From an uncultured Clostridia bacterium (GTDB taxonomy: Bacteria > Bacillota > Clostridia > Christensenellales > UBA1242), in NCBI GenBank assembly GCA_944332315.1, contig CALVJT010000006.1, positions 1 to 44,092 of the forward strand: a DNA stretch of 44,092 nucleotides, written 5' to 3'. Position numbers and translations under genes: made by a program. Of the stretch, positions 15,059 to 44,092 are shown piece after piece. Numbering within the stretch: position 1 is the first letter of the stretch; each line of letters opens with the position of its first letter. The notes beneath the pieces were generated by a model that worked only from the letters and a program-made list of their open reading frames with translations, was not told the origin of the DNA and did not search any database.

Positions 15059-15087
15059 AGTATAACATTTATAACTAAATTTGTCAA
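15059..15087 (-). promoter_or_regulatory. Sigma-A promoter, TTGACA-N17-TATACT
   Basis: Minus strand: TTGACA (15087-15082), 17 nt, TATACT (15064-15059). Its -35 box overlaps the stop codon of the ABC-F gene, so the downstream gene is transcribed independently. Confidence 0.8.
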
Positions 15088-16595
15088 CAACTCTTAAAAA
15101 CTTCTTTCAATTGGCAGTTTTGCAATGCGTATACTCTATCGGTTGTAGCATTAATAAAATCTAAATCGTGCGAAATTGTCAATACCGTACCCTTAAAGTT
15201 TGCCAATACCTTTTTAAGGAATTCTTTATTGGCAATATCTAAATGATTTGTTGGCTCATCTAATATTATAAAGTTGGCATCACTCAAAATAATTTGGTTC
15301 AACTTTATTCGCATACGCTCCCCTAATGATAGATATTTTGTTTTTGTATTAAATCGCGTTTTATCTATGTTCATATTAATCAAATTTGTTATAAAACTTG
15401 TTCTAAAATAGGCATCACCACTTTTAGACATTTCATTTATTGTCGTATTTTCGTCTAAATCGTAGATATCTTGTTCTAGATGTGCAATGTTCAGGCTACC
15501 CGCCTTTATTATATTGCCTTTTTGGCACTGCAATTTGCCTACAATTAAATTAATAAGAGTGGTTTTGCCTGTGCCGTTATTGCCTATTATTCCCACCTTT
15601 TCGCCAGATTTGATTTCAAAATTTAATGACTCGAAAAGTGCCCTTAGAGTTGAATATCCAAACTCGACATCCTCAAACTTTACTGCTACTTTAGATTTTA
15701 GTGGGTTAGCATCGAACCTATACTTTATCTCTCTTTCCACTTCTGGCTTATCAGGCGCATTATCAAGTTGATGCTCTAGTCTACTAATTCTGCTTGCAAC
15801 AGTTTTATTCATTTTTTTTGCGTGCACCATCGCTTTTGTTTTAGTTTGCATATAGCCGCTTCCGTTACCCCTATCTTGCCTGCCAACATCACGCTCTGCT
15901 TTATCGGCAAACTTGCGTATAAACTCTATATTTTCTTTTATCTCTTTAACTTTTTTTGTGTAGGTTATATAATCCCGCTCTTTGCTAATTAGCTCTAATT
16001 CTTTTTGATGCTTAAAACTATTGTAGTTGCCAGCGTACTCTTTTATTTTTGTGTTACTTATTTCTATAATCTTTTGAGCAAAAGCATTCAAAAAATCTAT
16101 ATCGTGCGAAACCGCAATAACTGTGCCCTCAAATGCGCCTATCAAATTTAATAAAACTTTTTTACCCCCAATATCCAAATGATTAGTTGGTTCATCTAAT
16201 AGCAAAGTTTGAGGATTTTTTATATACTCGAGTGCAAACGCAAGTTTTGTGCGCTCCCCACAAGATAATTTATCTACATTGTGTATATCCCCTACAAACC
16301 CCAACAGTTTAAGATTATATAGCAACCTACCCCTTTGTTCTTTATCCAAAAGCACACTTTTTAGCGTATTAAAATCGGTAAATGATGACTGCCTTAAAAA
16401 CGCCACAGTGCCATCTATTTTACACAGCCCGCTATAATCATCATCAAAACCAGCAATTATGTTTAGTAAAGTGGTCTTACCTACTCCGTTATCTCCTACA
16501 ATGCCTACCTTTTCACCATCATATATGGATAGGTCAATGCAATCAAAAATTGTCTTTTCTCCAAAATCTTTACTTAATTTACTTAAATATAGCAT
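15084..16595 (-). CDS. ABC-F family ATPase (ribosome-associated; possible antibiotic-protection protein)
   Basis: 503 aa from the ATG at 16595, which has AAAGGAGG 7 nt upstream (16610-16603); the frame is open further upstream but without an SD. Two ATPase domains and no membrane helices, as in ABC-F proteins. Domain 1: Walker A GDNGVGKTT (34-42), signature LSCGERTK (110-117), LLLDEPTNHLD (131-141). Linker of about 80 residues with many Lys/Glu. Domain 2: GNNGTGKTT, LSLGERMR, ILDEPTNHLD. ABC-F proteins act on the ribosomal E site; some relieve macrolide, lincosamide, streptogramin or pleuromutilin inhibition, others are housekeeping translation factors. The long attenuator-like leader upstream favours an inducible protection protein, but that is inference. 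Confidence 0.9.
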   Translation of the reverse strand: MLYLSKLSKDFGEKTIFDCIDLSIYDGEKVGIVGDNGVGKTTLLNIIAGFDDDYSGLCKIDGTVAFLRQSSFTDFNTLKSVLLDKEQRGRLLYNLKLLGFVGDIHNVDKLSCGERTKLAFALEYIKNPQTLLLDEPTNHLDIGGKKVLLNLIGAFEGTVIAVSHDIDFLNAFAQKIIEISNTKIKEYAGNYNSFKHQKELELISKERDYITYTKKVKEIKENIEFIRKFADKAERDVGRQDRGNGSGYMQTKTKAMVHAKKMNKTVASRISRLEHQLDNAPDKPEVEREIKYRFDANPLKSKVAVKFEDVEFGYSTLRALFESLNFEIKSGEKVGIIGNNGTGKTTLINLIVGKLQCQKGNIIKAGSLNIAHLEQDIYDLDENTTINEMSKSGDAYFRTSFITNLINMNIDKTRFNTKTKYLSLGERMRIKLNQIILSDANFIILDEPTNHLDIANKEFLKKVLANFKGTVLTISHDLDFINATTDRVYALQNCQLKEVFKSC

Positions 16596-16599
16596 AGTT

Positions 16600-16622
16600 G
16601 TACCTCCTTTCCCGCAAGGTAC
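16600..16622 (-). promoter_or_regulatory. Hairpin covering the ABC-F Shine-Dalgarno site
   Basis: On the minus strand GTACCT (16622-16617) pairs with AGGTAC (16605-16600). The 3' arm contains the last bases of the SD AAAGGAGG, with the rest in the 11-nt loop. It could limit ribosome access. Stem of only 6 bp. Confidence 0.4.
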
Positions 16623-16912: not shown

Positions 16913-17125
16913 TTATAATATTAATTGTTGAAAGGCAAGTTTATATATTACAAAGTAAATAATCTCTAGCATAACATAACAAACATATCTACAAATGCAT
17001 AAGCTGATACACTACACATTCTACTAATTAAACTAGTATAATATATTTAGATTATTCTATACATAACAAATTACATTTGCTAACATAAAATGACGATATA
17101 TAAACAATTCCCACAAATAAAATAA

Positions 17126-17151
17126 GGCTGAACAAGAAATCTTTGTTCGCC
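17126..17151 (-). terminator. Attenuator-type terminator hairpin upstream of ABC-F
   Basis: On the minus strand GGCGAACAAAG pairs with CTTGTTCAGCC (one bulge, one G-U) around a short loop, followed by TTATTTTATTTG. The 5' arm contains ACAAAGAT, which can instead pair with ATCTTTGT at 17194-17187 just after the leader-peptide stop. The two structures exclude each other. Confidence 0.6.
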
Positions 17152-17197
17152 CCAAATACTTTATACCTATATTAAATGAAAGGACGACAAAGATATA

Positions 17198-17224
17198 TTA
17201 AATACTTAATATAATCATTATCAT
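17198..17224 (-). CDS. Leader peptide ORF, 8 aa (MIMIILSI)
   Basis: ATG at 17224 preceded by GGAGG (17236-17232) at 7 nt, an excellent ribosome site for an ORF of eight codons ending in TAA at 17198. It lies about 20 nt into the transcript from the consensus promoter at 17253-17281 and before an attenuator hairpin. Five of the eight residues are Ile/Leu. Its role is inferred to be ribosome sensing rather than the peptide itself; a tiny membrane-active peptide is the alternative. Confidence 0.5.
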   Translation of the reverse strand: MIMIILSI

Positions 17225-17252
17225 TCTTTCACCTCCAACCTTTATTTGCGCC

Positions 17253-17281
17253 ATTATAACCCAAAATTTATTACTTGTCAA
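17253..17281 (-). promoter_or_regulatory. Perfect consensus sigma-A promoter of the ABC-F leader
   Basis: Minus strand TTGACA (17281-17276), 17 nt, TATAAT (17258-17253): full consensus. It points toward the ABC-F gene about 650 nt away with no other sizeable ORF between. Confidence 0.85.
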
Positions 17282-17460: not shown

Positions 17461-17489
17461 TTGACAATAATTTTTGCGTTTGCTATAAT
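17461..17489 (+). promoter_or_regulatory. Perfect consensus sigma-A promoter
   Basis: TTGACA (17461-17466), 17 nt, TATAAT (17484-17489), 16 nt before the ATG at 17506, with GAGG in between as SD. Confidence 0.85.
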
Positions 17490-17505: not shown

Positions 17506-17997
17506 ATGGAAAATAATATAGATAAACACTTAAAAATTAAGAAAAAATTAAAAATTATTGGAATAATACTTATTGTAGTTGGTTTGGGATGTGTTATAGC
17601 AGGCTTTATAGATATTGCAAGAGCCAATAATAGTTATAGTGCTCCAAAATTGTTCTTTTTGCTCATTATTGGTTTCCCACTACTATTTGGCGGTATTGCT
17701 TGCACTTTGTGGGGCTTTGCTAAAGAGATGGCTAGATATGCTAAAAATGAGTCCGTTCCAATTTCTAATGAAGCAGGGCAAGAGATGAGTACAGGTTTAC
17801 AAGGCATCACGCACGCAGTTAAACAAGGGCTTAAAGATGAGGAAAAAATTATTTGCGAATGTGGACAACAAAATGATAAAGGTAGTAACTTTTGTAGCGC
17901 ATGTGGTCGTCCGCTTTCAAAAAAATGCCCAAACTGTGGGAATGTTCTAGAGCAGTACGACAAGTTTTGCAGTAAATGCGGAAAAGAAATGGAGTGA
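17506..17997 (+). CDS. Membrane protein with C-terminal double zinc ribbon, 163 aa
   Basis: Basic N-terminus, two membrane helices (about 17-37 and 48-70), a short cytosolic linker, then CECG...CSACG and CPNCG...CSKCG: four CxxC pairs, i.e. two zinc ribbons (zinc-ribbon family common in Bacillota membrane proteins). Both ends are predicted to face the cytoplasm. Such ribbons usually mediate protein contacts; no enzymatic residues are seen. The gene is followed after 11 nt by the HipA-like gene on the same strand, so the two are probably co-transcribed from the consensus promoter upstream. Confidence 0.85.
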   Translation: MENNIDKHLKIKKKLKIIGIILIVVGLGCVIAGFIDIARANNSYSAPKLFFLLIIGFPLLFGGIACTLWGFAKEMARYAKNESVPISNEAGQEMSTGLQGITHAVKQGLKDEEKIICECGQQNDKGSNFCSACGRPLSKKCPNCGNVLEQYDKFCSKCGKEME

Positions 17998-18008
17998 AAA
18001 GATATTAA

Positions 18009-19118
18009 ATGCCCACTGAAAGAATATCAATACTAAAATCTAAAAAGTTTCTATTGCCTAGTAAATCTAAAACATTTAATAGCATTATGTGGTACACAAC
18101 AAATGGGCGCGATTATCTTTTTAAGTTTCCACAAAAAAACAATAAATCTTTTAAGCCTTTTATAAATGAGGTGCTAATTTCTGCTATATGCAAGCGCCTT
18201 AACTTGCCTTGCCAAAAAGCTACTTTTGCTGTTTTTCACAAAACAATGGGCGTGAAAATAGAGAGTTTTTTAAGTAATGGCGAAGTTGAAATTCCACTTT
18301 ATGATTTTATTGGCAAACGCTTTCAACAAAGGCTTTACGAAGTAGTAGGCGAAGACTTTTTTGAGGATGCAATTATTCCGATGATAGAAAAACAAGGCAC
18401 CAAAGGCAAATCGAGAATAGATAAACAGGAACTGCTAAACGATTTTTTTGAACAGGTAACCTTTTTAATAGATTGCAAACTAAAAATTAGAGAATGTGCA
18501 CCTGCCGTACTAAAAAAAATAGAAAAAAACTATGAACAAATATATTCCCTTTATGATGAATTTGAGCACAAACTTGACGATAAAAGTATTTATAATTATA
18601 TGAATGAGTATGCGCACGAACAAAATTTGCAGATAAACCCACAATTAAAAGTTAATTATTGTAGGCAAATAATTTTAGATTTACTAACTGGTCAAGAGGA
18701 TAGGCACCTAAACAACATAAGTTTGCTACAAAATAAAAAAACCATCCGCCTTGCCCCCATGTATGATAATGGTCATTGCCTTTTATATAAAAGATATGAC
18801 GAATCAAACAAAACACAAATTTCGCTGACCGATTTTACTTACAGTATGCTAACTACAAACTCTATGCTTATGCGAGATTTATACGAAATTCAGAATTTTA
18901 TAAAAAATAATAGAAACGATTTTATTAATGATTTTATAAAAGAAAATTTCGAAGCATTAAGTAAAATTATACCTACAAAGCAAGAATTAAACGGTACCCA
19001 ATGGCTTTATGAATATTTGGATAATATTTTTAATTATATGCAAACAAATATGCTAATACTAAATAAAAACATTGAAAAATTTAAGGCAAATGAAGCATCA
19101 TTATCCCAAAAACCTTAA
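18009..19118 (+). CDS. HipA-like kinase-fold protein, 369 aa
   Basis: The C-terminal half carries the HipA catalytic pattern: DLLTGQEDRHLNN at 224-236 (catalytic Asp in DRH, Mg-binding Asn) and LAPMYDNG at 248-255 (second metal Asp). YLFKFP at 36-41 offers the likely ATP-binding Lys39, and FINEVLIS at 51-58 the following helix Glu. HipA proteins phosphorylate proteins on Ser/Thr; classical ones are toxins paired with an HTH antitoxin HipB. No HipB-like gene is adjacent; the upstream partner is a membrane zinc-ribbon protein. The SD is weak (GGAG of the previous gene's end, 14 nt away), suggesting low expression or coupling. Fold assignment fairly sure, role unknown. Confidence 0.7.
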   Translation: MPTERISILKSKKFLLPSKSKTFNSIMWYTTNGRDYLFKFPQKNNKSFKPFINEVLISAICKRLNLPCQKATFAVFHKTMGVKIESFLSNGEVEIPLYDFIGKRFQQRLYEVVGEDFFEDAIIPMIEKQGTKGKSRIDKQELLNDFFEQVTFLIDCKLKIRECAPAVLKKIEKNYEQIYSLYDEFEHKLDDKSIYNYMNEYAHEQNLQINPQLKVNYCRQIILDLLTGQEDRHLNNISLLQNKKTIRLAPMYDNGHCLLYKRYDESNKTQISLTDFTYSMLTTNSMLMRDLYEIQNFIKNNRNDFINDFIKENFEALSKIIPTKQELNGTQWLYEYLDNIFNYMQTNMLILNKNIEKFKANEASLSQKP

Positions 19119-25644: not shown

Positions 25645-27126
<1,482 letters not shown>

Positions 27127-31221: not shown

Positions 31222-34200
31222 TCAATGGCCTTTAGTATCAATCAATTCCCTAATTTTATCTCTGCTATGCTTCTTTTTATAAGCTTTAATACTCAAGTAA
31301 ACTACTAATGCTATAACTGCAAGGCAAAGAATTGCTCCAACAATTATTAGTGGTATTTTTATAAAGTTTTCTATACTTACATTTACAGTTAAATTGCCTT
31401 GTATGTTGGATAGACTTTGGTCATAGGCAACCCTATCGCCAAAACCTAGTTCAACTTGAGGCACATCGGTCAAAGTACCACCGTGTTCCACAGTTTTAAT
31501 AACAGTAGTGCCATCTGGCATTATAAATGTTACAGTGTAGACATTTATTGTATAAACTGCATTAAATACCATATTGCTGGTTATGACAAAATCGTCAAAG
31601 TAGATTTTTTCGCCATTAGCATTTTGTAAGTAATACCTAATGTTTCCATCAACAGTTTCTTGGTATACACGCCATGTCACATTGTTGCTATCAACATAGC
31701 TATAGTATGGAGCCACTTGCGTGTAGCCAGTTAATGAAGGCAATGTAGGCAATGTAAAGCCCGCCAAAGTTGAACCAAAGGTTGCGTATCTTAATTCAGT
31801 TTGTCCATTTATTACAAATGAAATTACCAAATCATTGAGTTCGTACCTACCATAGAGAGAAAGATTTCTATCAATTGTAGTATTAAAGTCGAACACACGA
31901 GTAAGATCGCTATCATAGTACCATGAAACTATATGATTGCCCTCTGGCACTTCAATATCGTTAGGTGCAATTACCTTGCCATTATAAGCCACTTGTCTTG
32001 TTGCGCGCAACTGACCATCAACATAGAACTCTACAGTAAACACAATTGCTTCGTATTTGCCATAAATATACATATCTTGCGTTACTGTTGTGCCCTCAAA
32101 ATCAAATGGTTGTTCAAAATTAGCATCTGCATACCAACCAATTAGATTGTAGCCCTCAATATTAACTATATTAGCTTCTGGTAGTGTTACAAATTCGCCA
32201 TAGTCTCTGTACTGTCTTGTAATAACTCTATTGCCGTTCATAAATCTAATTTCAAACGAATCAGCAATATAGTGCCCATACAACTCTATGTCGCCCGTAA
32301 CTTGCGAATTAAAGTTATATAATTCGCTTGAGCCATACAAACACCAACCCCAGAAATTATAGCCTTCCATATAAGGATCGGTAGGTCTTGTTGCAGTATC
32401 CATATAAGCAACATACTGCACTTGCCCGTACTGTTGAGGGTTTTCCTCGCTGAGATAGAATGTTACAGTGTAAGTTGCCCTTGTGTACTCGGCATACAAA
32501 GTGATATCCTCATATATGCGCTCGGTTGCAAAATCAAATTCTTGTGTAAGAGCGCTATCCTTATACCAAGCCACAAAATCGTAGTGCAATAGCGTAGGAT
32601 CCTCTGGCGGTTCTATCAAACTGCCGTAAGGAACGCTTGTATAAGGCGCTACATACGAGCCATCTATGGAGTTAAATGTTACAACATAGGTGTTTATTGT
32701 AAGCCCTTCTACCCTAACCATAATATTATCGGCAACTCTATTAATATAGTATACACCATTGATGTTTAGTATTGGAGTATCGTTAGCATATACTTGAAGT
32801 ACACTTTCGTTATACGCTTCCTTAACCTCGATGCTAAATGCAAAGTCGTTGTTATAGTAAACTTCATTAGGGTCGTACCCCTCTACTACATTTATTATAG
32901 CAGCATTAGAATCAAGTTGAGGTAAAGTTATAGTATACTTTTCAATTACCCAATATGCAACAAGTGTTAAATCATTTGTATAGTTGAACGGAGTACTTGG
33001 AGTAATTTCGTCACCCTGAGGTTCGCCATCAATAATTGCGGTGTACCATCCAGAGAATATATACCCCTCGCGCGTTGCGGTAGGCCAATCTGTAGCAAGT
33101 GCACCAAATGTACTACCATATTGCGCTTGCGTTGCGATTGGACGCGCAGTACCGTTGTTTGCATCGTAGTAAACATTATATATTGCACCTGACCACTGTG
33201 CTGTCAACTTAAACTCTTGCCCTTGTACTGTAGTCAAATTTTGTACAAGTGCTTTATCATCGTAGAATCTACCTTGCGTATCTACCCAACGATCAAACAC
33301 ATACCCTTCTCTTGTAAAGGTGTTTGTCGAAAGCACTTTTGCAACATCGTATGTAAATACTTGTGGCTCCATTGTACCTTCACCACCACCAGCATCAAAT
33401 ACAATGGTATATGTAATTGCTTTCCAACTTGCAATTAAGGTATAGTTACCAGCACCAATTGTAAATTGTCCATCTACCAAAGAGCCTTGCCCTTCAACAC
33501 TGGCAACCTCTGTCCAGCCTTCAAATGTGTATCCTTCTCGGATAGGATCAGATACTGTATAAGGTTCTCCGCCGTAAGGTAAAGATTTCTCGACTGCTGT
33601 GCTAGAACCTTCGTAAGTTCCACCATTAGGGTCTATTACAAGCGTAAAGTTAGAGCTCCTAAAGTCTGCAACCAAGGTTTGAGCTGTAAGCCACTCTATT
33701 TGATAGGTATTTGTGTACTGTTGATCATCTATAAACCAACCGCTAAATTCGTAGCCGTTTAGCGTTACGGTTGGCAAGATACCGAGCGTACCACCATACT
33801 GATATGTCCTTGATAAGGTTTTGTTACCTGAATTATAGTCCCACTCATCTTCATTGTAGGTACCAAAAGTACCGCCATTAGCATCAAGTGTTACTACAAT
33901 ATTTATAGCTTCAAATACGCATCTAATTACAGCATTGCCTTCGCCCATAGTAAATGTCCATTGGCTACCATCGCCACCATTAGGGTCGAGAGTTCCACCA
34001 CCAGATTCTACTACTTCGTATTCGATAAAGTCATATCCAGCTTTATGAGGCAACGAATCATCATCAAACTCTAAAGTAATTTGATTTGTAGCCGATGCTT
34101 GCACTGAGTAGCGAGTCAGCTCCTGCCCGTCAACGGTGATAGCCCCGCCATCTAGCTCAAGCGTGAGCAAGTAGGTGCTAGTGCCCCAGTGTGCATAAAC

Positions 34201-37200
34201 AATTGTATCATTCTCTATTTTTACTGTTACAATAGAAGTTATTTGATCGGCACCATCATCCTGTCCCAAGAACCAACCTAGGAACACGCTATTGCCATCT
34301 TTAGGCAATGCAGGCAATGCGCCGTATGGACTATCGTATGTTACAGTTTTTGTAGCCGTATTGCCATTAACTGTCCATCCATCAGAACCAGTAGAAGCAG
34401 GAATATCTACATCGTGACCATTCAAATCAAAGGTCAAGGTAAATTCTCTAGCTTCATATATAGCCTCTACAGAGGCATTGGAATCTGTAAATATAAACTT
34501 CCAAACACCATCTTCATTTGTAATTTGACCAGAGCCTGAAGTAATCCTAAATTCAATAAAATCATATCCTGTTTTTTGCGGGTCTGCACTAAATGTATAT
34601 GACTGCCCTATTTGCATTTGTTGAGGTGCAATAGTGCTTTGCCCACCAATTGTACCGCCATTTAGGTCAATAGTTAAAGTATATGTTATAGGAGTATATT
34701 TAGCGGTTAGCGTATGATCCTGAGAAATACTTACTGTTGTTGCACCAACAACAATGTTGCCATCGGATGTTTGCCAGCCATCAAATGTGTAGCCCGCTTT
34801 ATAGGCAGTAGGTAGAGTGCCATCTATGGCATCATATCTATCGCCAAAGTAAACGCTAATTTGTACAGTTTCGCCCAAATCACCTTCGGCGCCTTGAATA
34901 GTTCCGCCATCGGCATCCAAAGTAACCTTCAAGGTTTGTGCTCTATATGTTGCAGTGATGACTGCATCAGTTGAGCCAAATGTAAATGTATAAATTCTAT
35001 TTGCGCCCTCGCCAGTCGATGTCAACTCGCCATCATCGCTGAGTAAGGTATATGTATCAAACTCATAGCCTTCCTTAGTAGGCACACCAAATTGAATTGT
35101 AGAACCAAAAGGTCTTTCCCATTGAGTTAGCCCGCCTTCGGTAGCAAGCGTACCGCCATCCAAAATCAAAGTTAGGGTGGAGGTTTTTTCGCGCCAATCA
35201 GCATAAAGAGTGTGATTGCCCTCTACATTTACTGTGGTAGACGATATGATGTAATCTTGATCGCTAGGATTTTGTTTCCAACCAGCAAAGTTGTAGCCAT
35301 CTCTTGTAGGAGTAGGCAATGCCCCATAGGATAGTCCATAGGTTACATTTATTGTAGTTGTATTTAATCCACTTTCAAACATACCTAAACCAGCATCAAG
35401 GGTAACTACGCCCTGTTTAGCAAGCCAATTTGTAACAAGTACTACATCGGTATCGCCAAGCACGAAGCTAACAATACCACCTTGAATAGAGTATGTACCC
35501 TCTCCGCTTTGGTCAAAGCCATCAAAATCGTATCCATACCTTGTAGGCTGATTGAATTCTATAGTTTGCCCAAACTCGCCTGAGTATTCTTTATATGCAA
35601 CATTATCGCCTTCATCAATGGAGCCACCGTTAAGGATAACACGAAGCGTCCATTTTTGAATTTCCCAATGAGCATACAATGTGTGCGCTTCGGCACGCGA
35701 TACAAGTTGTGTAGAGTAGACAATATCGCCGTCCACGCTTTGAGTATACCAACCTGTAAAGTCATAACCAGTTCTTGTAGGTGTTGGCAATGTACCATAT
35801 GGCATACCATAAATTATATCCTTAGATGCCACGGTGTTGCCACCATCAGCGCCTTGATAATCGAAAGTTAGCAAGTAGGTTTCGGCTTTCCAACTAGCAG
35901 TTATTGTGCCGTTGCTTGAGCCAAAGGTGTAGATGAACGCATCGCCATCCTCTTCAATATTTCCGCCACCGGTTAGTACCCAGCCTTCAAACTCGTAGCC
36001 CGTTCTTGTAGGCATAGCAATAGGCTGTGTGGCATCTATACTGCCTGTATATTGCGTGATATCCGAAGTTCCGTTAAATGTTCCGTTGTTAGGGTTTACA
36101 AACAAAGTGTACTCTATTTTTTCATACTGAGCATAAAGTCTGAAATCTTCATCCATTTCAACTCTACTGCTTGTATTCATTTGCACTCCGCCATTGCCCG
36201 AAACAGTGAACCAGCCCTTAAAGCGGTAGCCATCTAATTGAGCAACTGGCAAATCGCCATAAGTTGCGCCAAAGTCGTAGGCCTTTGTACCGGTTTTTCT
36301 ATCCTCGCTTACAGATATACCTGTGCTTGTTATGATACCTTCAACAGCATCAAATGTTACAACTATTAGTTTAGGTGACCACTGAGCTACTATTGTTGTA
36401 GTGCCCTCGCCAAAGATAAACGCAAAGCCTTCCTCAACGCTTCCTTCAACGGAGCCATAGGTTGTAGTGTTGTTCCAGCCCGTAAATTCATAGCCATAAC
36501 GCTCAGGAATTAGCAAGTCAATTCTTGAGCCATAACTGTTTGTAAAGGTAGTTGTGCCACTTTCGCCATCATATGTACCCCCGTTAGGGTTGATTATAAG
36601 GTTATAATTGATATCCGAAAATTTAGCAGTTACGGTAAAGTTTTCAAGCAAAGATACATCCAATGTATCGTAAATTCGATTGCCATTTTCCATATACCAG
36701 CCATCGAACATCTGCCCTATTTTGTACATATTTGGCAAAATGCCAAATGGTTCGCCGTAGAATACTGTAAGGGTTGCTGAATCGTCATACACATCGCCCT
36801 CAAAGCCTACAGTATCAACATAACTTGCACCAGCAAAGTTAAATGTAACTTGTACCGAAATTGGGTTCCAGCGCGCAACAAGTGTATGATCCTCGGCACG
36901 CGTCACAATAGTTTCCTCGGTAATTTTTTCGTCTAGCAAATACCATCCATCAAACTCATAGCCAACGCGCTCTACTTCTGGCAACTCATAAGGATAGCCA
37001 ACAAACAATCTTATCTGCGAATACTCCAAAACGCCACCTTGCGCGTTAAAGGTTACATTGATGTATTCGGTATCGTAGCGAGCATACAAAGTTTGATCGT
37101 CTGCAAGTGTTAAAAGCGAATCACTAAACACTTGTGTACCAACTTGTGGTGATGTAAACCAGCCAAGGAATGCCATTGACCCGTGCGAAACGCTAGGCAA

Positions 37201-40200
37201 TGCCCCATACTGCTCGCCATAAGTAACTTGCTTTGTGGTTGTATGTCCGCCAACCTCGCCCTCAAAGCCTTCGTTGGCAATAATAGTACCCTCGCCAGCA
37301 TCAAATGTGATGGTGTACGAATTGGCTTTCCAATGAGCATAGAGCGTCATATTAGATGAAACTTGATAATCACTCTCAATTTTTTCGCCTTCCTCTAGCT
37401 CAGTATACCAACCAAGGAACTCGTATCCAGCGCGAGTAGCGGTAGGCATAGTTTCGAAAGTATTGCCATACCTAATTTCCATTACGCTGATGTTAGTAGA
37501 ACCTAAGTTAGCATCAAAGTTTACAGTAAATGTCAAGACATTCCACCTAGCATAAAGTGTAATTTGCCCATTAACCTCATCAGTTAGATTTGTTACGCTA
37601 GCGCCATCACTATAACTTTGACCAGTGCCATCAGCCCTACTGTTCCAACCAGCAAACTCATAGCCTAAACGAGTAAATGTGTTAGCTGGCAATATAACTT
37701 GGCTTCCGTATGTTGTTTTAACAGAGTCCATTGTGCCATTGCCACCATTGCTACTAAAGTAGATAGTGTATTCATTAGGCGCCCATTGAGCCGAGATAAC
37801 AGCATCTTGAGACCCAAAGGTAAAGCTGTTTCTATTCGCCGTTCCGTTGCCAGATGTTATATTCCACCCAGTAAAGGAGTGTCCTACACGGTCTGGGGTC
37901 AATAAATCTATAGTTCCGCCAGCTTCTCCAGTAAACTCTACTACATCAGTAGAATTATTATAGCTACCGCCATTAGGATTTATAGTAAGCCTATATAATT
38001 GTGGAGCATATTTAGCTGTTAGGGTGATGTTCTCTTCCCAAGAAACAGTGCTGGTGCTATAAACTTCTGAGCCATTAGGGTCTACCCACGCCTCAAAAGT
38101 GTAGCCTGCTTTTACTAGGTTAGCCGCTGTTGGCAAATTGCCAAACGTTCCATCCGATTGAACTTGCAAATCAATTGTATTATCCTCTTGCACCTCTCCA
38201 AAAGCATCAACGTTTTGCCATGTTCCTTCGTTAGGATCAAGCGTCACAGTTATGGTTATTCTCTCCCACCCAGCTGTTAATGTTATATTTGTATCAGGGA
38301 AAAGGAATGTATATCCATTTTCCTCATCACCAACAAGCGAAACTTCGATAGGAGTTTGCGTGCCTGTGATAGTTGCAGTGTAGCCAGTAAATGCATAACC
38401 AAACCTTGTAGGTGCTTGTACTGGTACAGTAGAACCATAATCTCTAATTATTGCAGTTACATTGTTAGAACCATTATAAAGTCCACCATTAGGGTCTATT
38501 GTGAGTGTGAGCGACATTATTTGCCACTGAGCAAATAGTGTAACCTCGCCATTGTTTTCGAGCGTAAGATCTACAACACTAGTCCCATTACGGTAAGCAG
38601 TGCCGTTGCCATCTTTATCGGTATTCCAACCAGTAAAGTTGTAGCCTGTTCTATCAAAACCATTTTCTGTTAAATCAATGTATGTGCCAACTTGCGCATC
38701 CAAACTACTCATAGTCCCACTTGTAGCGCCGTTGCCATCAAAGTGAATTGTGTAGTTATTGGCGTTCCAAATAGCTATAATGCTACCATTGCCATTACCA
38801 AAAGTAAATACATAGGAGCCCGTGCTATCATCAACACTGCCTTTATAGTAATCGTTTTGTTGTACATTCCAGCCACCAAAATCGTAGCCTGCACGCTTAG
38901 GAAGTGGAAGTGTGATAGTTGTAGGGTTTTCTACATCATAAGAACCTGTGTAGGTGCCTGTAAACTCCTCGTCATCTACAGTACCGCCATCTAGGTTTAC
39001 AGATAATGTATATATTTTTTGAGTCCAATTAGCATAGAAAGTAGTGCCAGCCGTATCTATAACAGTATCGGTAGCAACAACTACATTTTCAAAAGTTGCT
39101 TCCCTAAACCATCCGGCAAAGGTATAGCCTTCATATACATCATTTGAAAGTACAGGCAAGCTCGAATACTTTTGCCCCACATAAACAATAATTTCTGCAG
39201 GTTCCTGAGCGCCCGCAGGGCCGTAGTTAAGCGTGATAGTTATAGGCTGTGCCTCCCAATTAGCTTGAATGCTTGCGTTGTCGTTGCCGAACAAATATCC
39301 ATAACCATTAATAGGGTCATTTACAAGTTGTCCAGCACTTTCTGGGCCGACATTAAAACCAGTTAGTTGATACCCTGGGCGCGTTATATCCGCAAACCAA
39401 ATAGTTTGACCATAGTCGCCCCTAATTGTTATTGTACCTGTTTGAGGCCCATCCTCGCCATCGTATGTACCACCATTAAGGTCTATCCAAAGAGTGTAGT
39501 TGCTTGCTCTCCACGCAGCATATAAATAGAAGTTTGTAACAGAATTTACAGTGGAAGCTGCCGTGATTTCCTCGCCTTCACCATTAGGTTGAGTAAACCA
39601 GCCCAAGAATGTAAATCCTTGTCGTGTAGGCGTTGGCAATTCCTCATACACAGTTTCGTAGCCAAACGAAAGTGTCAAAACATTTTGAGTTTGCCCTTCA
39701 ACATCAATGCTACCGCCTCGTGCATCAAATGTAACAACAACATATACAGGAGCATACTCTACATAAACTGTAATTGTATCCTCTTCCGACCTTACAACTC
39801 TCATTTCTCCAACAGGAGTTTCATCGTCAAGCAAATATTGATTTACAGTATATCCGGTTAATGTAGCAGTAGGCAACGTTCCATATGTATCACCATAATC
39901 TTTTTCTATGGTAGCAGTTTTATAATCGTTCGAAAGCTCGTAGCCAAAACTTTCGTTTTCAGTATCAAATGTACCATCGCCAGCATCAAAAACAACTGTA
40001 ATTGTTCTTGGAGTAAATATTGGTTCCAAGGACATATTCTCTGTTACATATGTACTATAATCTACAGGTTCATCTGTATCAACATCTTTATAGCCATCAA
40101 ATGTATAGCCCTCGAGTTCAATTTCTGGCAAAGTGCCAAGCTGATCGCCGTGATAGTAGGTTTTTCTTGCCGATGTGCCGCTTTGCTCAAATTCGTACAA

Positions 40201-43200
40201 CACTGTAAATGTCCCGCCCAATGAAGCAATAGATACGGTATATTCATATTGTTGCCACAAAGCATAAAGCACTACAGTACTGCCGTTTGCAATAGATAAA
40301 TCTACCACATTTTGACCATCTAGGTAAATAGTACCAGAGCCATCGCTATATTGCGTCCAACCTATAAAATCTGCTGTAGGGCTAGAAAATAGGTTTTGTG
40401 GTAATACAACGCTTACGCCGTACTGAGCAGTGATAGGCTCCATTGGCCCGCCAACTGCATCATCGCGGTTAGCATCAAACTCAATTGTGTATGTTATAGG
40501 TGCCCAGCATGCATATAACACCATACTTTCAATAACTGGGTCATACTCGCTAACATATGTAGTACCATTATATTCTTTAGCCCACCCAAGCAAAGTGTAG
40601 CCCTCGCGGGTAGTTGATGGCAAGTAGCCCAAAACTTCGTTATAATTATAAGTTCTTTCGGAAATAGAGCAGAAGCCACCATTTGCATTGAATGTAACGG
40701 TATACTTTTCAGGGCTAAACACGGCATAGAGCGTGATGTTTTCGGTAATTTTTACCGTACTATTTGGCAAATACTGATTGCCATCTCCATAGCGATCGTC
40801 AAACCACCCTAAAAAGCTTGCACCCGCTTGCGATACGCTCGGGAATACTCCATACTCGCTATCATAGTACACACTTTTGGTTGCTCTATTGTTTTGGATG
40901 CTTTCGGTTGGAAAGTTTTCATCCGCAACCAAAGTACCTGTGTTGCCATCAAAAGTGATAGTTATTGCTGCTGGATCCCATTGCGCTACCAAAGTGATAT
41001 CGGATGTAACAGTATCATCCTCGTTTGCTACACGGCTTGTATCGGTGTTATATACCCAGTGCTTAAAGGTAAAGCCACCGCGCGTAGGCTCAGGTAATTC
41101 GCCTATAACACTGCCATAATCGCGCGAAACTGTTGGAGTACTAACCTCGCCACCGTTTGCATCAAACACTACCATAAGTCTGTTTACATTGTAGTGCGCA
41201 TAAATTTCTAAATTGTAAACATATGTATATAAACTTGTAGATACAAATTGATCTGTTTTATCTATTGGATCTCCAAACCATCCAACAAAGTTTGAACCAA
41301 CAAGTTTAGGAGTAGGCAAAGTGCCTAAAGTCGAATTATAATCTATAGTTCTAGATGCAGATAGGTTATCTTCACTATAATCCCAACCATCTACCTGCGA
41401 AAGCGTTCCGCCTTGCCCATATAAAGTTACGGTAAACTGCATTGGAGCATAGTGAGCATAGAATGTTGCCCCAGCGGTGACAACATAACCTTGCTCGATT
41501 TGTTCATCATCACTAGTAAACCACCCAAGGAAAGTATAGCCTGTGTACCGAACATCAGGTAGCACCTCAATGCGAGAATTGTACTGATAGGATACAGTAG
41601 ATGTCGACCTACCCGTAACGCCATCAAATCCGCCAGTTTCTTGAATTATACCGCCCACTGCATCGTAGATGACATCGTACATTATGCTTTGCCATACGGC
41701 ATACAAAGTTATTACAGTGCCATTAGTGGATGTTAGATTTAGTACATTGCTACCATCACCATAAATGGTACCACTGCCCATTGCATCTAAACTCCAACCA
41801 CTAAACCTAAAACCACTGCGCTCATAAGTATTGGTTTTTAATTGACTTAATTGCCCGTACTTAAACTCAGATCGAGTCATTTCGGTGCCACCAGTAGCCC
41901 CGTTGCCATCGTAATTTACATAGTATGTGATAGGGTCCCACTTCGCCTGAATTATGGTGTTGCCACTATCAAAAGTAAAGATACCACCCTTATAAGTTCC
42001 AGGACCAGATGTTATTTCCCAAGTATTTAAGGTATAACCTTCTCTGTGCGGAGTTGGCAAAGTAAATGTATTACCTGGTTGGCCCTCCTCGGTTTGGAGT
42101 GGGTCTCCATTAACTTTATTTATTGTTAGCACATATGTATTTTCGGCGTAGTGAGCGTACAGCGCCATATCGTCTGAGTTTTTATAAATAGTAGATTCAT
42201 TGTACTGCGTTCCGCCAGTGCCACTTGTGTACCAACCAGTAGGGTTATAGCCTATTTTGCCTACAGTTGGCATAGGCCCTATTGCCTGATCGTATGTTAC
42301 AGTTTTAGTGTAGTATACGGAGTTGCCAGAACCTACTTGCGTAAAGCCCTCTACACTTACCCATTTTGCATCATCATCATTTTTGTAGAACGAAAGTGTA
42401 TAGGTTCTAGCTGTCCAATTGGCTGTAACTGAGCCATTGCCCGCACCAAATGTGTATCTTGTGCCGTTTACGCTACCAGCCCCGCTAGAGTTAGACCAGC
42501 TTGCAAATTGGTATCCCACACGCGTGGTAGTTGGCAAGGTTATTTGCTCGTTGATATTGCCAACAATAGTTATACTGTTAGTGCTGTTGTTATATGTACC
42601 GCCATTAAAGTTTATAGTTAGTGTATAATCTATTTCTCGCCAATGCGCATATAGCGTAGTTGCGCTAGGAAAACGCACTAAACTGCCCACATCGTAGCGC
42701 GTGCCACCAGAACTGCTTGTGTACCAACCATCAAACTCGTAGCCCGAGCGCGTTGGCGTAGGCATACTGCTTATGATATCTCCATAATCAAAGTGCTGAT
42801 ATGCCGTTTTGTTGGAAGCCGTCCAACCATTCATCCCCGTCCACTGCGAAGCATCAAAATCGGCCTCGTTTGCCTGCAAGGTTAAATTATAACTTAATGT
42901 TTTCCACTCGGCATATAGTGTTATAGAATTTGCCGTGGATGGTAGCATTGATACTCTTAAAACGGTAGAACTTGTAACAACGCTAGATGACGAAAGTGAA
43001 CTATCATAGTGCCAGTTTACGAACCCCCAGCCCTCTCTAGCCGGCTTTGTAAGAGAGCCAAATGTGCTATCCAATCTAACCGTTGTTGGCGCAACATAAC
43101 TACCGCCGTTGGTATTAAACGATACTGTTATGTTTGCTGGGGTCCAATTAGCATAAAGGGTATCGCTAGCAACATCCTCTCCCCATGATTGATAGGATGT

Positions 43201-44092
43201 TCCAGATGAATTGTAGTACTTTGTTCCACTACCATTCCTTCCTGTATAGTACCCCTCAAAGGTGTAGTGCGTACGGCTAGGCACATTAATCCTTGGCATT
43301 GAACTGCCATAGGTTGCTTCTGTAGATTTCGTACCGCCAGAGCCCTCTCCAGGGTCAAAATAGATATTTGATGTTTTAGCAGTCCATTCGGCATATAACG
43401 TTGTATCGTTATAAAATACAGTACTAGAATATACTCGACTGCCCGAACCAGTCATCCAGTATTCAAAATAGTACCCCTCTCTACTTGGTTCTGGTAGAGA
43501 ATATCCATTTTGAGATAGCGTTGAACTATCGTCAATATCTGCACTAGCAGTCTTACCGCTGTAGTCCCAACCAGAAATATAATTCCAATACCGAGCATTT
43601 TCATCTGCCTCTGGTGCACGCAATGTTATGGTGATTGATGGTATTCCCCACACAGCGTATAGGGTAATTACATCATCAGCTTCAGTAGTCAAATTTTTTA
43701 CTGACTGGCCATTTGTATATCTAACTGTATTGCTATATGAACTAGTAGCCCAACCTAAAAATTCATACCCACTACGAGTAAATCGATTGGCAGAAAGTCC
43801 TTGTGAACGTCCGTAAGTAAATGTTTGGTCGGACATGCTACCACTTCCGCCATTACGATTGAACCTTACTTGATATTGGTTTGCCTCCCAATGGGCATAC
43901 CAAATATCATTGGCATTCATATCGTAATTTCTATTACCAACCCCGTTCGCGTTTATATATTGATCCCCACTACTAGCTGAAGTATAGTATCCGGTAAATG
44001 TATAACCTGTTCTAGTAGGGATGGTTACTGTTGGAGCCACTTTGCCATATGTTACTTGTATTGTTTTATCGCTACCGCTACCGCCGTTAGGC
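31222..44092 (-). CDS. Giant InlB/Flg_new-repeat surface protein (5' end beyond window)
   Basis: An uninterrupted frame of 4,289 codons to the window edge; the start is not seen (the GTG at 44040 is internal, since the frame NGGSGSDKTIQVTYGK continues upstream). The protein is about 50 tandem repeats of 60-90 residues of the InlB B-repeat / Listeria-Bacteroides type, each with a (F/V)xxxGG core, a GYxFxGW motif and a closing TLYAxW or equivalent. Copies are diverged, and several subtypes interleave. The last ~90 residues end in a hydrophobic helix (IPLIIVGAILCLAVIALVVY) and a basic tail, a C-terminal membrane anchor instead of an LPXTG sorting signal. Expected to span the wall as a long adhesin or scaffold. 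A similar repeat ends the partial gene at 1-1474. Confidence 0.95.
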   Translation of the reverse strand, partial: PNGGSGSDKTIQVTYGKVAPTVTIPTRTGYTFTGYYTSASSGDQYINANGVGNRNYDMNANDIWYAHWEANQYQVRFNRNGGSGSMSDQTFTYGRSQGLSANRFTRSGYEFLGWATSSYSNTVRYTNGQSVKNLTTEADDVITLYAVWGIPSITITLRAPEADENARYWNYISGWDYSGKTASADIDDSSTLSQNGYSLPEPSREGYYFEYWMTGSGSRVYSSTVFYNDTTLYAEWTAKTSNIYFDPGEGSGGTKSTEATYGSSMPRINVPSRTHYTFEGYYTGRNGSGTKYYNSSGTSYQSWGEDVASDTLYANWTPANITVSFNTNGGSYVAPTTVRLDSTFGSLTKPAREGWGFVNWHYDSSLSSSSVVTSSTVLRVSMLPSTANSITLYAEWKTLSYNLTLQANEADFDASQWTGMNGWTASNKTAYQHFDYGDIISSMPTPTRSGYEFDGWYTSSSGGTRYDVGSLVRFPSATTLYAHWREIDYTLTINFNGGTYNNSTNSITIVGNINEQITLPTTTRVGYQFASWSNSSGAGSVNGTRYTFGAGNGSVTANWTARTYTLSFYKNDDDAKWVSVEGFTQVGSGNSVYYTKTVTYDQAIGPMPTVGKIGYNPTGWYTSGTGGTQYNESTIYKNSDDMALYAHYAENTYVLTINKVNGDPLQTEEGQPGNTFTLPTPHREGYTLNTWEITSGPGTYKGGIFTFDSGNTIIQAKWDPITYYVNYDGNGATGGTEMTRSEFKYGQLSQLKTNTYERSGFRFSGWSLDAMGSGTIYGDGSNVLNLTSTNGTVITLYAVWQSIMYDVIYDAVGGIIQETGGFDGVTGRSTSTVSYQYNSRIEVLPDVRYTGYTFLGWFTSDDEQIEQGYVVTAGATFYAHYAPMQFTVTLYGQGGTLSQVDGWDYSEDNLSASRTIDYNSTLGTLPTPKLVGSNFVGWFGDPIDKTDQFVSTSLYTYVYNLEIYAHYNVNRLMVVFDANGGEVSTPTVSRDYGSVIGELPEPTRGGFTFKHWVYNTDTSRVANEDDTVTSDITLVAQWDPAAITITFDGNTGTLVADENFPTESIQNNRATKSVYYDSEYGVFPSVSQAGASFLGWFDDRYGDGNQYLPNSTVKITENITLYAVFSPEKYTVTFNANGGFCSISERTYNYNEVLGYLPSTTREGYTLLGWAKEYNGTTYVSEYDPVIESMVLYACWAPITYTIEFDANRDDAVGGPMEPITAQYGVSVVLPQNLFSSPTADFIGWTQYSDGSGTIYLDGQNVVDLSIANGSTVVLYALWQQYEYTVSIASLGGTFTVLYEFEQSGTSARKTYYHGDQLGTLPEIELEGYTFDGYKDVDTDEPVDYSTYVTENMSLEPIFTPRTITVVFDAGDGTFDTENESFGYELSNDYKTATIEKDYGDTYGTLPTATLTGYTVNQYLLDDETPVGEMRVVRSEEDTITVYVEYAPVYVVVTFDARGGSIDVEGQTQNVLTLSFGYETVYEELPTPTRQGFTFLGWFTQPNGEGEEITAASTVNSVTNFYLYAAWRASNYTLWIDLNGGTYDGEDGPQTGTITIRGDYGQTIWFADITRPGYQLTGFNVGPESAGQLVNDPINGYGYLFGNDNASIQANWEAQPITITLNYGPAGAQEPAEIIVYVGQKYSSLPVLSNDVYEGYTFAGWFREATFENVVVATDTVIDTAGTTFYANWTQKIYTLSVNLDGGTVDDEEFTGTYTGSYDVENPTTITLPLPKRAGYDFGGWNVQQNDYYKGSVDDSTGSYVFTFGNGNGSIIAIWNANNYTIHFDGNGATSGTMSSLDAQVGTYIDLTENGFDRTGYNFTGWNTDKDGNGTAYRNGTSVVDLTLENNGEVTLFAQWQIMSLTLTIDPNGGLYNGSNNVTAIIRDYGSTVPVQAPTRFGYAFTGYTATITGTQTPIEVSLVGDEENGYTFLFPDTNITLTAGWERITITVTLDPNEGTWQNVDAFGEVQEDNTIDLQVQSDGTFGNLPTAANLVKAGYTFEAWVDPNGSEVYSTSTVSWEENITLTAKYAPQLYRLTINPNGGSYNNSTDVVEFTGEAGGTIDLLTPDRVGHSFTGWNITSGNGTANRNSFTFGSQDAVISAQWAPNEYTIYFSSNGGNGTMDSVKTTYGSQVILPANTFTRLGYEFAGWNSRADGTGQSYSDGASVTNLTDEVNGQITLYARWNVLTFTVNFDANLGSTNISVMEIRYGNTFETMPTATRAGYEFLGWYTELEEGEKIESDYQVSSNMTLYAHWKANSYTITFDAGEGTIIANEGFEGEVGGHTTTKQVTYGEQYGALPSVSHGSMAFLGWFTSPQVGTQVFSDSLLTLADDQTLYARYDTEYINVTFNAQGGVLEYSQIRLFVGYPYELPEVERVGYEFDGWYLLDEKITEETIVTRAEDHTLVARWNPISVQVTFNFAGASYVDTVGFEGDVYDDSATLTVFYGEPFGILPNMYKIGQMFDGWYMENGNRIYDTLDVSLLENFTVTAKFSDINYNLIINPNGGTYDGESGTTTFTNSYGSRIDLLIPERYGYEFTGWNNTTTYGSVEGSVEEGFAFIFGEGTTTIVAQWSPKLIVVTFDAVEGIITSTGISVSEDRKTGTKAYDFGATYGDLPVAQLDGYRFKGWFTVSGNGGVQMNTSSRVEMDEDFRLYAQYEKIEYTLFVNPNNGTFNGTSDITQYTGSIDATQPIAMPTRTGYEFEGWVLTGGGNIEEDGDAFIYTFGSSNGTITASWKAETYLLTFDYQGADGGNTVASKDIIYGMPYGTLPTPTRTGYDFTGWYTQSVDGDIVYSTQLVSRAEAHTLYAHWEIQKWTLRVILNGGSIDEGDNVAYKEYSGEFGQTIEFNQPTRYGYDFDGFDQSGEGTYSIQGGIVSFVLGDTDVVLVTNWLAKQGVVTLDAGLGMFESGLNTTTINVTYGLSYGALPTPTRDGYNFAGWKQNPSDQDYIISSTTVNVEGNHTLYADWREKTSTLTLILDGGTLATEGGLTQWERPFGSTIQFGVPTKEGYEFDTYTLLSDDGELTSTGEGANRIYTFTFGSTDAVITATYRAQTLKVTLDADGGTIQGAEGDLGETVQISVYFGDRYDAIDGTLPTAYKAGYTFDGWQTSDGNIVVGATTVSISQDHTLTAKYTPITYTLTIDLNGGTIGGQSTIAPQQMQIGQSYTFSADPQKTGYDFIEFRITSGSGQITNEDGVWKFIFTDSNASVEAIYEAREFTLTFDLNGHDVDIPASTGSDGWTVNGNTATKTVTYDSPYGALPALPKDGNSVFLGWFLGQDDGADQITSIVTVKIENDTIVYAHWGTSTYLLTLELDGGAITVDGQELTRYSVQASATNQITLEFDDDSLPHKAGYDFIEYEVVESGGGTLDPNGGDGSQWTFTMGEGNAVIRCVFEAINIVVTLDANGGTFGTYNEDEWDYNSGNKTLSRTYQYGGTLGILPTVTLNGYEFSGWFIDDQQYTNTYQIEWLTAQTLVADFRSSNFTLVIDPNGGTYEGSSTAVEKSLPYGGEPYTVSDPIREGYTFEGWTEVASVEGQGSLVDGQFTIGAGNYTLIASWKAITYTIVFDAGGGEGTMEPQVFTYDVAKVLSTNTFTREGYVFDRWVDTQGRFYDDKALVQNLTTVQGQEFKLTAQWSGAIYNVYYDANNGTARPIATQAQYGSTFGALATDWPTATREGYIFSGWYTAIIDGEPQGDEITPSTPFNYTNDLTLVAYWVIEKYTITLPQLDSNAAIINVVEGYDPNEVYYNNDFAFSIEVKEAYNESVLQVYANDTPILNINGVYYINRVADNIMVRVEGLTINTYVVTFNSIDGSYVAPYTSVPYGSLIEPPEDPTLLHYDFVAWYKDSALTQEFDFATERIYEDITLYAEYTRATYTVTFYLSEENPQQYGQVQYVAYMDTATRPTDPYMEGYNFWGWCLYGSSELYNFNSQVTGDIELYGHYIADSFEIRFMNGNRVITRQYRDYGEFVTLPEANIVNIEGYNLIGWYADANFEQPFDFEGTTVTQDMYIYGKYEAIVFTVEFYVDGQLRATRQVAYNGKVIAPNDIEVPEGNHIVSWYYDSDLTRVFDFNTTIDRNLSLYGRYELNDLVISFVINGQTELRYATFGSTLAGFTLPTLPSLTGYTQVAPYYSYVDSNNVTWRVYQETVDGNIRYYLQNANGEKIYFDDFVITSNMVFNAVYTINVYTVTFIMPDGTTVIKTVEHGGTLTDVPQVELGFGDRVAYDQSLSNIQGNLTVNVSIENFIKIPLIIVGAILCLAVIALVVYLSIKAYKKKHSRDKIRELIDTKGH

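Follow-up and report, generated by a model that had tools for sequence, protein, structure and literature searches.

A conserved, probably drug-responsive attenuator, new in sequence and known in kind, precedes an ABC-F gene in an uncultured Clostridia bacterium

Does a short open reading frame upstream of a chromosomal ABC-F gene let the ribosome decide whether that gene is transcribed? We addressed this question in a stretch of 44,092 nucleotides from an uncultured Clostridia bacterium (the window), whose minus strand carries the gene and its leader (Table 1). The leader is very probably a transcription attenuator that works through the ribosome and controls a chromosomal ABC-F gene of the ribosomal-protection kind, a switch by which the gene is probably expressed only if an antibiotic causes ribosomes to stall on the upstream open reading frame (uORF).

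Table 1. Parts of the leader and its target gene, in window positions.
Feature	Positions	Strand	Details
sigma-A/70 promoter, TTGACA-17-TATAAT, 12/12	17253..17281	-	-35 at 17281-17276, -10 at 17258-17253
uORF Shine-Dalgarno, GGAGGTG	17230..17236	-	sequence; invariant in 5/5 genomes
uORF, 8 codons, MIMIILSI*	17198..17224	-	ATG ATA ATG ATT ATA TTA AGT ATT TAA
anti-antiterminator hairpin, 26 bp	17174..17234	-	-19.8 kcal/mol; minimum-energy structure
antiterminator 5' arm, AUCUUUGUCGUCCU	17181..17194	-	folding; comparison of 5 genomes
antiterminator 3' arm, GGGGCGAACAAAGAU, doubling as terminator 5' arm	17139..17153	-	folding; comparison
intrinsic terminator	17115..17153	-	stem 17153-17143/17135-17124, bulged A17129, tail AUUUUAUUU
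ABC-F ATPase, 503 aa, ribosomal-protection-like	15084..16595	-	nearest characterised VmlR2, VmlR
possible hairpin GUACCU..AGGUAC over ABC-F SD	16597..16622	-	translational level; weak evidence

The target gene had been called ABC-F from the outset, and its protein scores 401.6 bits against NF000355 (ribosomal-protection ABC-F), above the curated cut-off of 380, and far below the cut-offs of the EttA and Uup models. VmlR2 (8buu) and VmlR (6ha8) are its top PDB matches by sequence, at only about 30% identity. VmlR2 also comes first by fold, as judged from a predicted model of moderate confidence (pLDDT 80, pTM 0.47) in which long helices (191-242 and 248-276) lie between the ATPase domains. Its interdomain arm and the VmlR2 arm can be aligned with no gaps across the loop. 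By sequence, then, the protein is a ribosomal-protection-like ABC-F, nearest to VmlR2, with a putative role in resistance.

The original prediction described a full-consensus promoter, an 8-codon ORF with an ideal Shine-Dalgarno sequence (SD) and a terminator hairpin, lying in this order on the ABC-F strand. The promoter indeed matches the consensus at every position with a 17-bp spacer, its coordinates checked on the minus strand, and transcription is expected to start at ~17246. The uORF and its SD are likewise present, and the order of the parts is kept in the genus. All five genus genomes (species-level) carry the leader before an orthologous ABC-F gene, the proteins being 59-71% identical. 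Promoter, SD and short ORF are found in 5/5, the aligned promoter matching the consensus at 10-11/12 in each of the four relatives, and the terminator follows downstream in 4/5. The relatives' uORFs read MIMIVLSD, MIMIILSY, MIMNILRN and MIMIILRN, giving a genus consensus MIM[IN][IV]L[SR]x in which codons 1-6 are conserved, with variation at codon 4 (I/N) and codon 5 (I/V), and codons 7-8 are variable.

Such a leader might be a constitutive terminator with chance folding, the ABC-F gene being served by a promoter of its own. The long spacer would fit this, since the stretch from terminator to gene measures about 520 nt and is poorly conserved, and it holds two weak 9/12 promoter-like matches in this genome. 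Matches of this quality are no more than background, and the relatives share none at an aligned position; between terminator and gene no promoter of at least 10/12 was found in any of the five genomes. Furthermore, mean pairwise identity is 88% over the 63-nt uORF hairpin, 60% over the coding sequence and 31-40% over flanking intergenic DNA; the leader is present in 5/5 genomes and its flanks hardly align. The conservation of the leader above coding sequence argues against chance folding, and we regard this explanation as scarcely credible. The fold of the leader is also far more stable than that of shuffled sequences (z = -4.9; 0/200 shuffles as stable).

We surveyed how far the leader extends. 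A covariance model run over 309 family genomes gave strong matches in the five genus genomes alone. On inspection, four weaker matches proved to be starts of unrelated genes or otherwise spurious, and opposite-strand matches at the same place were due to the palindromic stem. Over 396 sampled genomes of the order, a sample that left out the other four genus members, the leader pattern was found in this genome only, plus two chance matches. The leader had been said to resemble no known one; in agreement with this, the window has no match to Rfam families at gathering score, a BLAST search of the leader against plasmids returned no match, and the letters of the leader peptide had none in the collection of papers searched. 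The leader sequence and its uORF consensus are new, and the MIM-type leader is confined to the genus among the 309 family genomes.

The minimum-energy structure of the leader is built of the helices AGGUGAAAG/CUUUCAUUU, AUGAUAA/UUGUCGU, GAU/AUC and AUAUUAA/UUAAUAU. In its lower part the SD is paired with CUUUCAUUU, in its middle the start codon is paired (17224-17218 with 17190-17184), and at its top lies the end of the uORF (17212-17206 with 17201-17195). The predicted fold buries the SD, the AUG and the 5' arm of the antiterminator together, and can therefore serve as an anti-antiterminator. A pairing of the SD region (17233-17226 with 17182-17175) had been proposed as an additional feature; it is real, and merely the base of this larger hairpin (17234-17174). 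Pairs of the hairpin form in 99.2% of cells in the five-genome comparison versus 39-54% when slid, and its variation, at five pairs, is one-sided only. In the alignment used (A2), the hairpin and terminator blocks are joined by a short linker, which is artificial in the four relatives, the variable spacer being omitted.

Bases 17194-17187 (AUCUUUGU) are perfectly complementary over 8 nt to 17146-17139 (ACAAAGAU), as claimed. The extension across a bulge, predicted at two pairs, is also real and longer than that, gaining 5-6 pairs: 17186-17181 pair with 17153-17148 across bulged A17147, in a helix of -16.2 kcal/mol. The antiterminator is retained in all five genomes, with 89% of its cells paired. 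Two of its pairs are compensated with both sides changed (C-G to U-A and G-C to A-U), and 9/500 shuffles equal it on cells paired and covariation score. The competing terminator stem, GGGGCGAACAA/UUGUUC(A)GCCUU, is worth -11.1 kcal/mol. Its hairpin had been taken to end at 17126, which falls within the 3' arm; the U-tract continues to about 17115. A simple terminator scan of the sequence missed it, the bulged A being the probable cause. Folding computations agree with the original proposal that antiterminator and terminator are mutually exclusive. A covariation analysis of both stems in homologues had been suggested, and its outcome is divided: the antiterminator has its two compensated pairs, whereas the terminator helix, 83% paired, is alone not clearly above shuffles among the five sequences, partly because one relative (G001) lost its 3' arm. 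Covariation is modest because only five sequences are available.

The U-tract terminator is kept in G002, G003 and G004 besides this genome. The G001 leader retains the antiterminator and has neither the terminator 3' arm nor the U-tract; it must work otherwise or be broken. In that leader (L002), between about -539 and -483 relative to the ABC-F start, a GCCUUAUAAGGC palindrome stretch replaces both missing elements, and a long GCGGACAAA/UUUGUCCGC stem without a U-tract forms in place of the terminator. After the uORF hairpin of L002 (and of L004) stands a U8, and the hairpin might terminate on its own.

The terminator-less G001 suggests another arrangement, in which control is mainly translational, the leader acting on the ABC-F SD with the terminator secondary. 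The ABC-F SD (mean unpaired probability 0.27) is predicted to be partly paired in 5/5 genomes, through GUACCU/AGGUAC here and in G001 and through different sequences in the other three, and attenuation of translation alone suffices to repress cplR (PMC10201436). On the other side, the pairing of this SD is not extreme among window genes, no conserved pairing between leader and ABC-F SD was found in the five genomes, and the terminator is kept in 4/5. We judge mainly translational control improbable; a second, translational level of control at the ABC-F SD, added to transcription attenuation, is possible. Several further sequence elements were seen in the leaders. The motif UAGGUA occurs in five copies in the G001 leader (L002) and in two each in G000 and G002 (L001, L003). 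In G000 and G001 it is complementary to the anti-SD (UACCU) of the ABC-F gene; a coupling of these motifs to the anti-SD was dropped, as the coupling is not conserved. Within the last ~60 nt before the ABC-F start, L003, L004 and L005 have a candidate H-type pseudoknot just 5' of the SD, with P1 as AAUCUA/UAGGUU, AACCUA/UAGGUU and AAUCUA/UAGAUU (compensating at one pair) and P2 as UGGGA/UCCCA, UAGGGA/UCCCUA and UUGUG(G)AGU/ACUCACAA; it was found by eye in these three sequences only and was not seen in L001 or L002.

We then asked where on the uORF a ribosome would have to stand for the antiterminator to form. Ribosomes were masked in the folds of the five genomes, the leading edge being set 15 nt beyond the first base in the P-site. 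Masking with P-site codons 1-5 left the full antiterminator energy in 5/5 genomes, codon 6 cost 0.7-2.7 kcal/mol, and codons 7-8 cost 6-12 kcal/mol in most cases. The model thus predicts release for stalls on codons 1-6 and not on codons 7-8: an early stall would favour readthrough, and a ribosome finishing the uORF would mask the arm and favour termination.

From these folds we infer the following course. Without stress, the uORF would be translated to its stop codon or not at all, and the uORF hairpin would hold the antiterminator arm, so that the terminator could form and transcription would end near 17118-17115. A ribosome that starts on the uORF and is arrested anywhere from codon 1 to about codon 6 would melt the base of the hairpin, its leading edge remaining upstream of 17194. 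The freed arm (17194-17181) could then pair with 17153-17139, the terminator could not form, and RNA polymerase would read through ~520 nt of leader into the ABC-F gene. We expect the stall to come from a drug of the 50S peptidyl-transferase centre, of the kind that the ABC-F protein would relieve; by analogy with VmlR/VmlR2, pleuromutilins, lincosamides and streptogramin A are candidates.

The ribosome might instead sense its nascent peptide, a drug (e.g. a macrolide or phenicol) stalling it only with MIM[IN][IV]L in the tunnel and not at the start codon, in the manner of erythromycin on MsrDL (MYLIFM). The contrast between conserved codons 1-6 and variable codons 7-8 agrees with this, the antiterminator arm stays free with the P-site no further along than codon 6, and the streptococcal MsrDL is likewise a short hydrophobic peptide before an ABC-F gene. 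Yet codons 1-2 and 5-6 are base-paired in the hairpin, and RNA pairing alone explains much of the conservation; codons 4 and 5 do vary, and among solved structures the protein resembles VmlR2 and not Msr. We consider peptide sensing possible though unlikely, and because RNA pairing confounds the comparison we do not claim selection on the peptide as proven. MIM[IN][IV]L might even be a new arrest peptide that depends on a drug, the nascent hexapeptide itself being read in the exit tunnel jointly with a 50S drug. This is doubtful by the same measure or slightly more so; were it true, the genus would have a sequence-specific sensor, and its relatives short uORFs of little sequence specificity.

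Such relatives were found in the order. Before related ABC-F genes from other genera and families (L007, L008, L126, L127, L130, L134, L137), uORFs picked by eye from promoter-proximal sequence, rather than by systematic survey, read MRK, MKIR, MRKN, MRIA, MRIRN, MLIRN and MRNF, most of them with a good promoter and a U-tract hairpin; after the L126 uORF no U-tract hairpin was found. Unlike the 8-codon uORF of the genus, these are 3-5 codons long, and in most the second residue is basic (MLIRN is the exception). Within the family of the genus, G005 has the uORF MTVISL. Among the relatives, L124, L125 and L147 have no clear leader in the 330 nt upstream that were examined. An automatic uORF scan of distant named ABC-F loci proved too strict, missing the known vmlR uORF in L037, and no count was drawn from it. 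At L035:2440-2480, in a MAG labelled Haloplasma, a perfect SD and short ORF (MIIIKKN*) stand between a terminator and a related ABC-F gene, with a longer ORF of 29 codons upstream of that terminator.

The relatives' peptides bear on an amino-acid attenuator, in which scarcity of charged Ile-tRNA for the AUA/AUU codons would stall the ribosome and induce the gene. Between 2 and 4 of the 8 uORF codons in the genus encode Ile, and the trigger need not be a drug, as vmlR is also induced by ribosome assembly defects (PMC9226507). Against this, there are just two Ile codons in G001 and G003, few or none in MRK, MRKN and MRIA, and the target is an ABC-F gene, neither biosynthetic nor for transport; we thus find isoleucine sensing very unlikely. 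With sensing of a 50S drug, our preferred reading, uORF-sensed control of ribosomal-protection ABC-F genes reaches a clostridial family of small genomes, and such bacteria are then expected to have protection from 50S drugs that is inducible. Whether the uORF sequence sets drug specificity is a question left by the cplR study (PMC10201436), for which 8-codon leaders in the genus and 3-5-codon leaders in its relatives offer a natural comparison.

Other genes of the window were noted in passing. Divergent from the leader, at 17506-19118 (+), lie genes for a zinc-ribbon protein, with its own 12/12 promoter at 17461-17489, and then a HipA_C-domain protein. Positions 31222-44040 (-) encode, in a genome of 1.33 Mb, a 4272-aa protein with many repeats and a likely membrane anchor at its end; by reading, we take the repeats to be like the InlB B-type repeats of Listeria/Bacteroides. 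At 25645-27096 (-) is a collagen-like GPTGPT repeat protein whose C-terminal part is non-repetitive; on reading, it presumably resembles spore-surface collagen-like proteins.

Together our data describe a real, conserved and probably drug-responsive attenuator, and the layout of antibiotic-responsive ABC-F attenuators recognised at first follows the logic shown experimentally for the vmlR and cplR leaders (PMC9226507, PMC10201436). The streptococcal msrD leader shares with it a short hydrophobic leader peptide (MsrDL, MYLIFM) and an intrinsic terminator before an ABC-F gene (PMC10314930). There, an erythromycin-stalled ribosome sits at the stop codon and is itself what blocks the terminator (PMC10314930). 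We rejected a stop-codon stall of this type for the present leader: in the computed geometry a ribosome at codon 8 or the stop lies over the antiterminator arm, with the terminator still able to form, and stalling must therefore be earlier than in MsrDL. The Clostridioides difficile cplR leader (uORF MR[I/M]) is alike in its 5' hairpin sequestering the uORF, its terminator and its predicted antiterminator (PMC10201436); its terminator hairpin itself hides the gene SD and couples transcription to translation, whereas here the terminator lies about 520 nt away. The Bacillus subtilis vmlR leader differs in its 3-codon uORF (MIN), its length (219 nt versus about 650 nt here), its SD, which is inside the hairpin only in the present leader, and its pause hairpin, of which no counterpart was identified here. 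On inspection of L037, a B. tequilensis vmlR locus, no similarity in sequence was seen in leader or uORF (MIN against MIMIILSI). The two leaders are nevertheless alike in design: in vmlR, too, the uORF is enclosed by an anti-antiterminator hairpin at the 5' end, the 3' strand of which supplies the antiterminator arm (PMC9226507), the antiterminator excludes a U-tract terminator, an SD-sequestering hairpin stands at the gene (a possible one in ours), and the protein probably comes from the same part of the ABC-F family.
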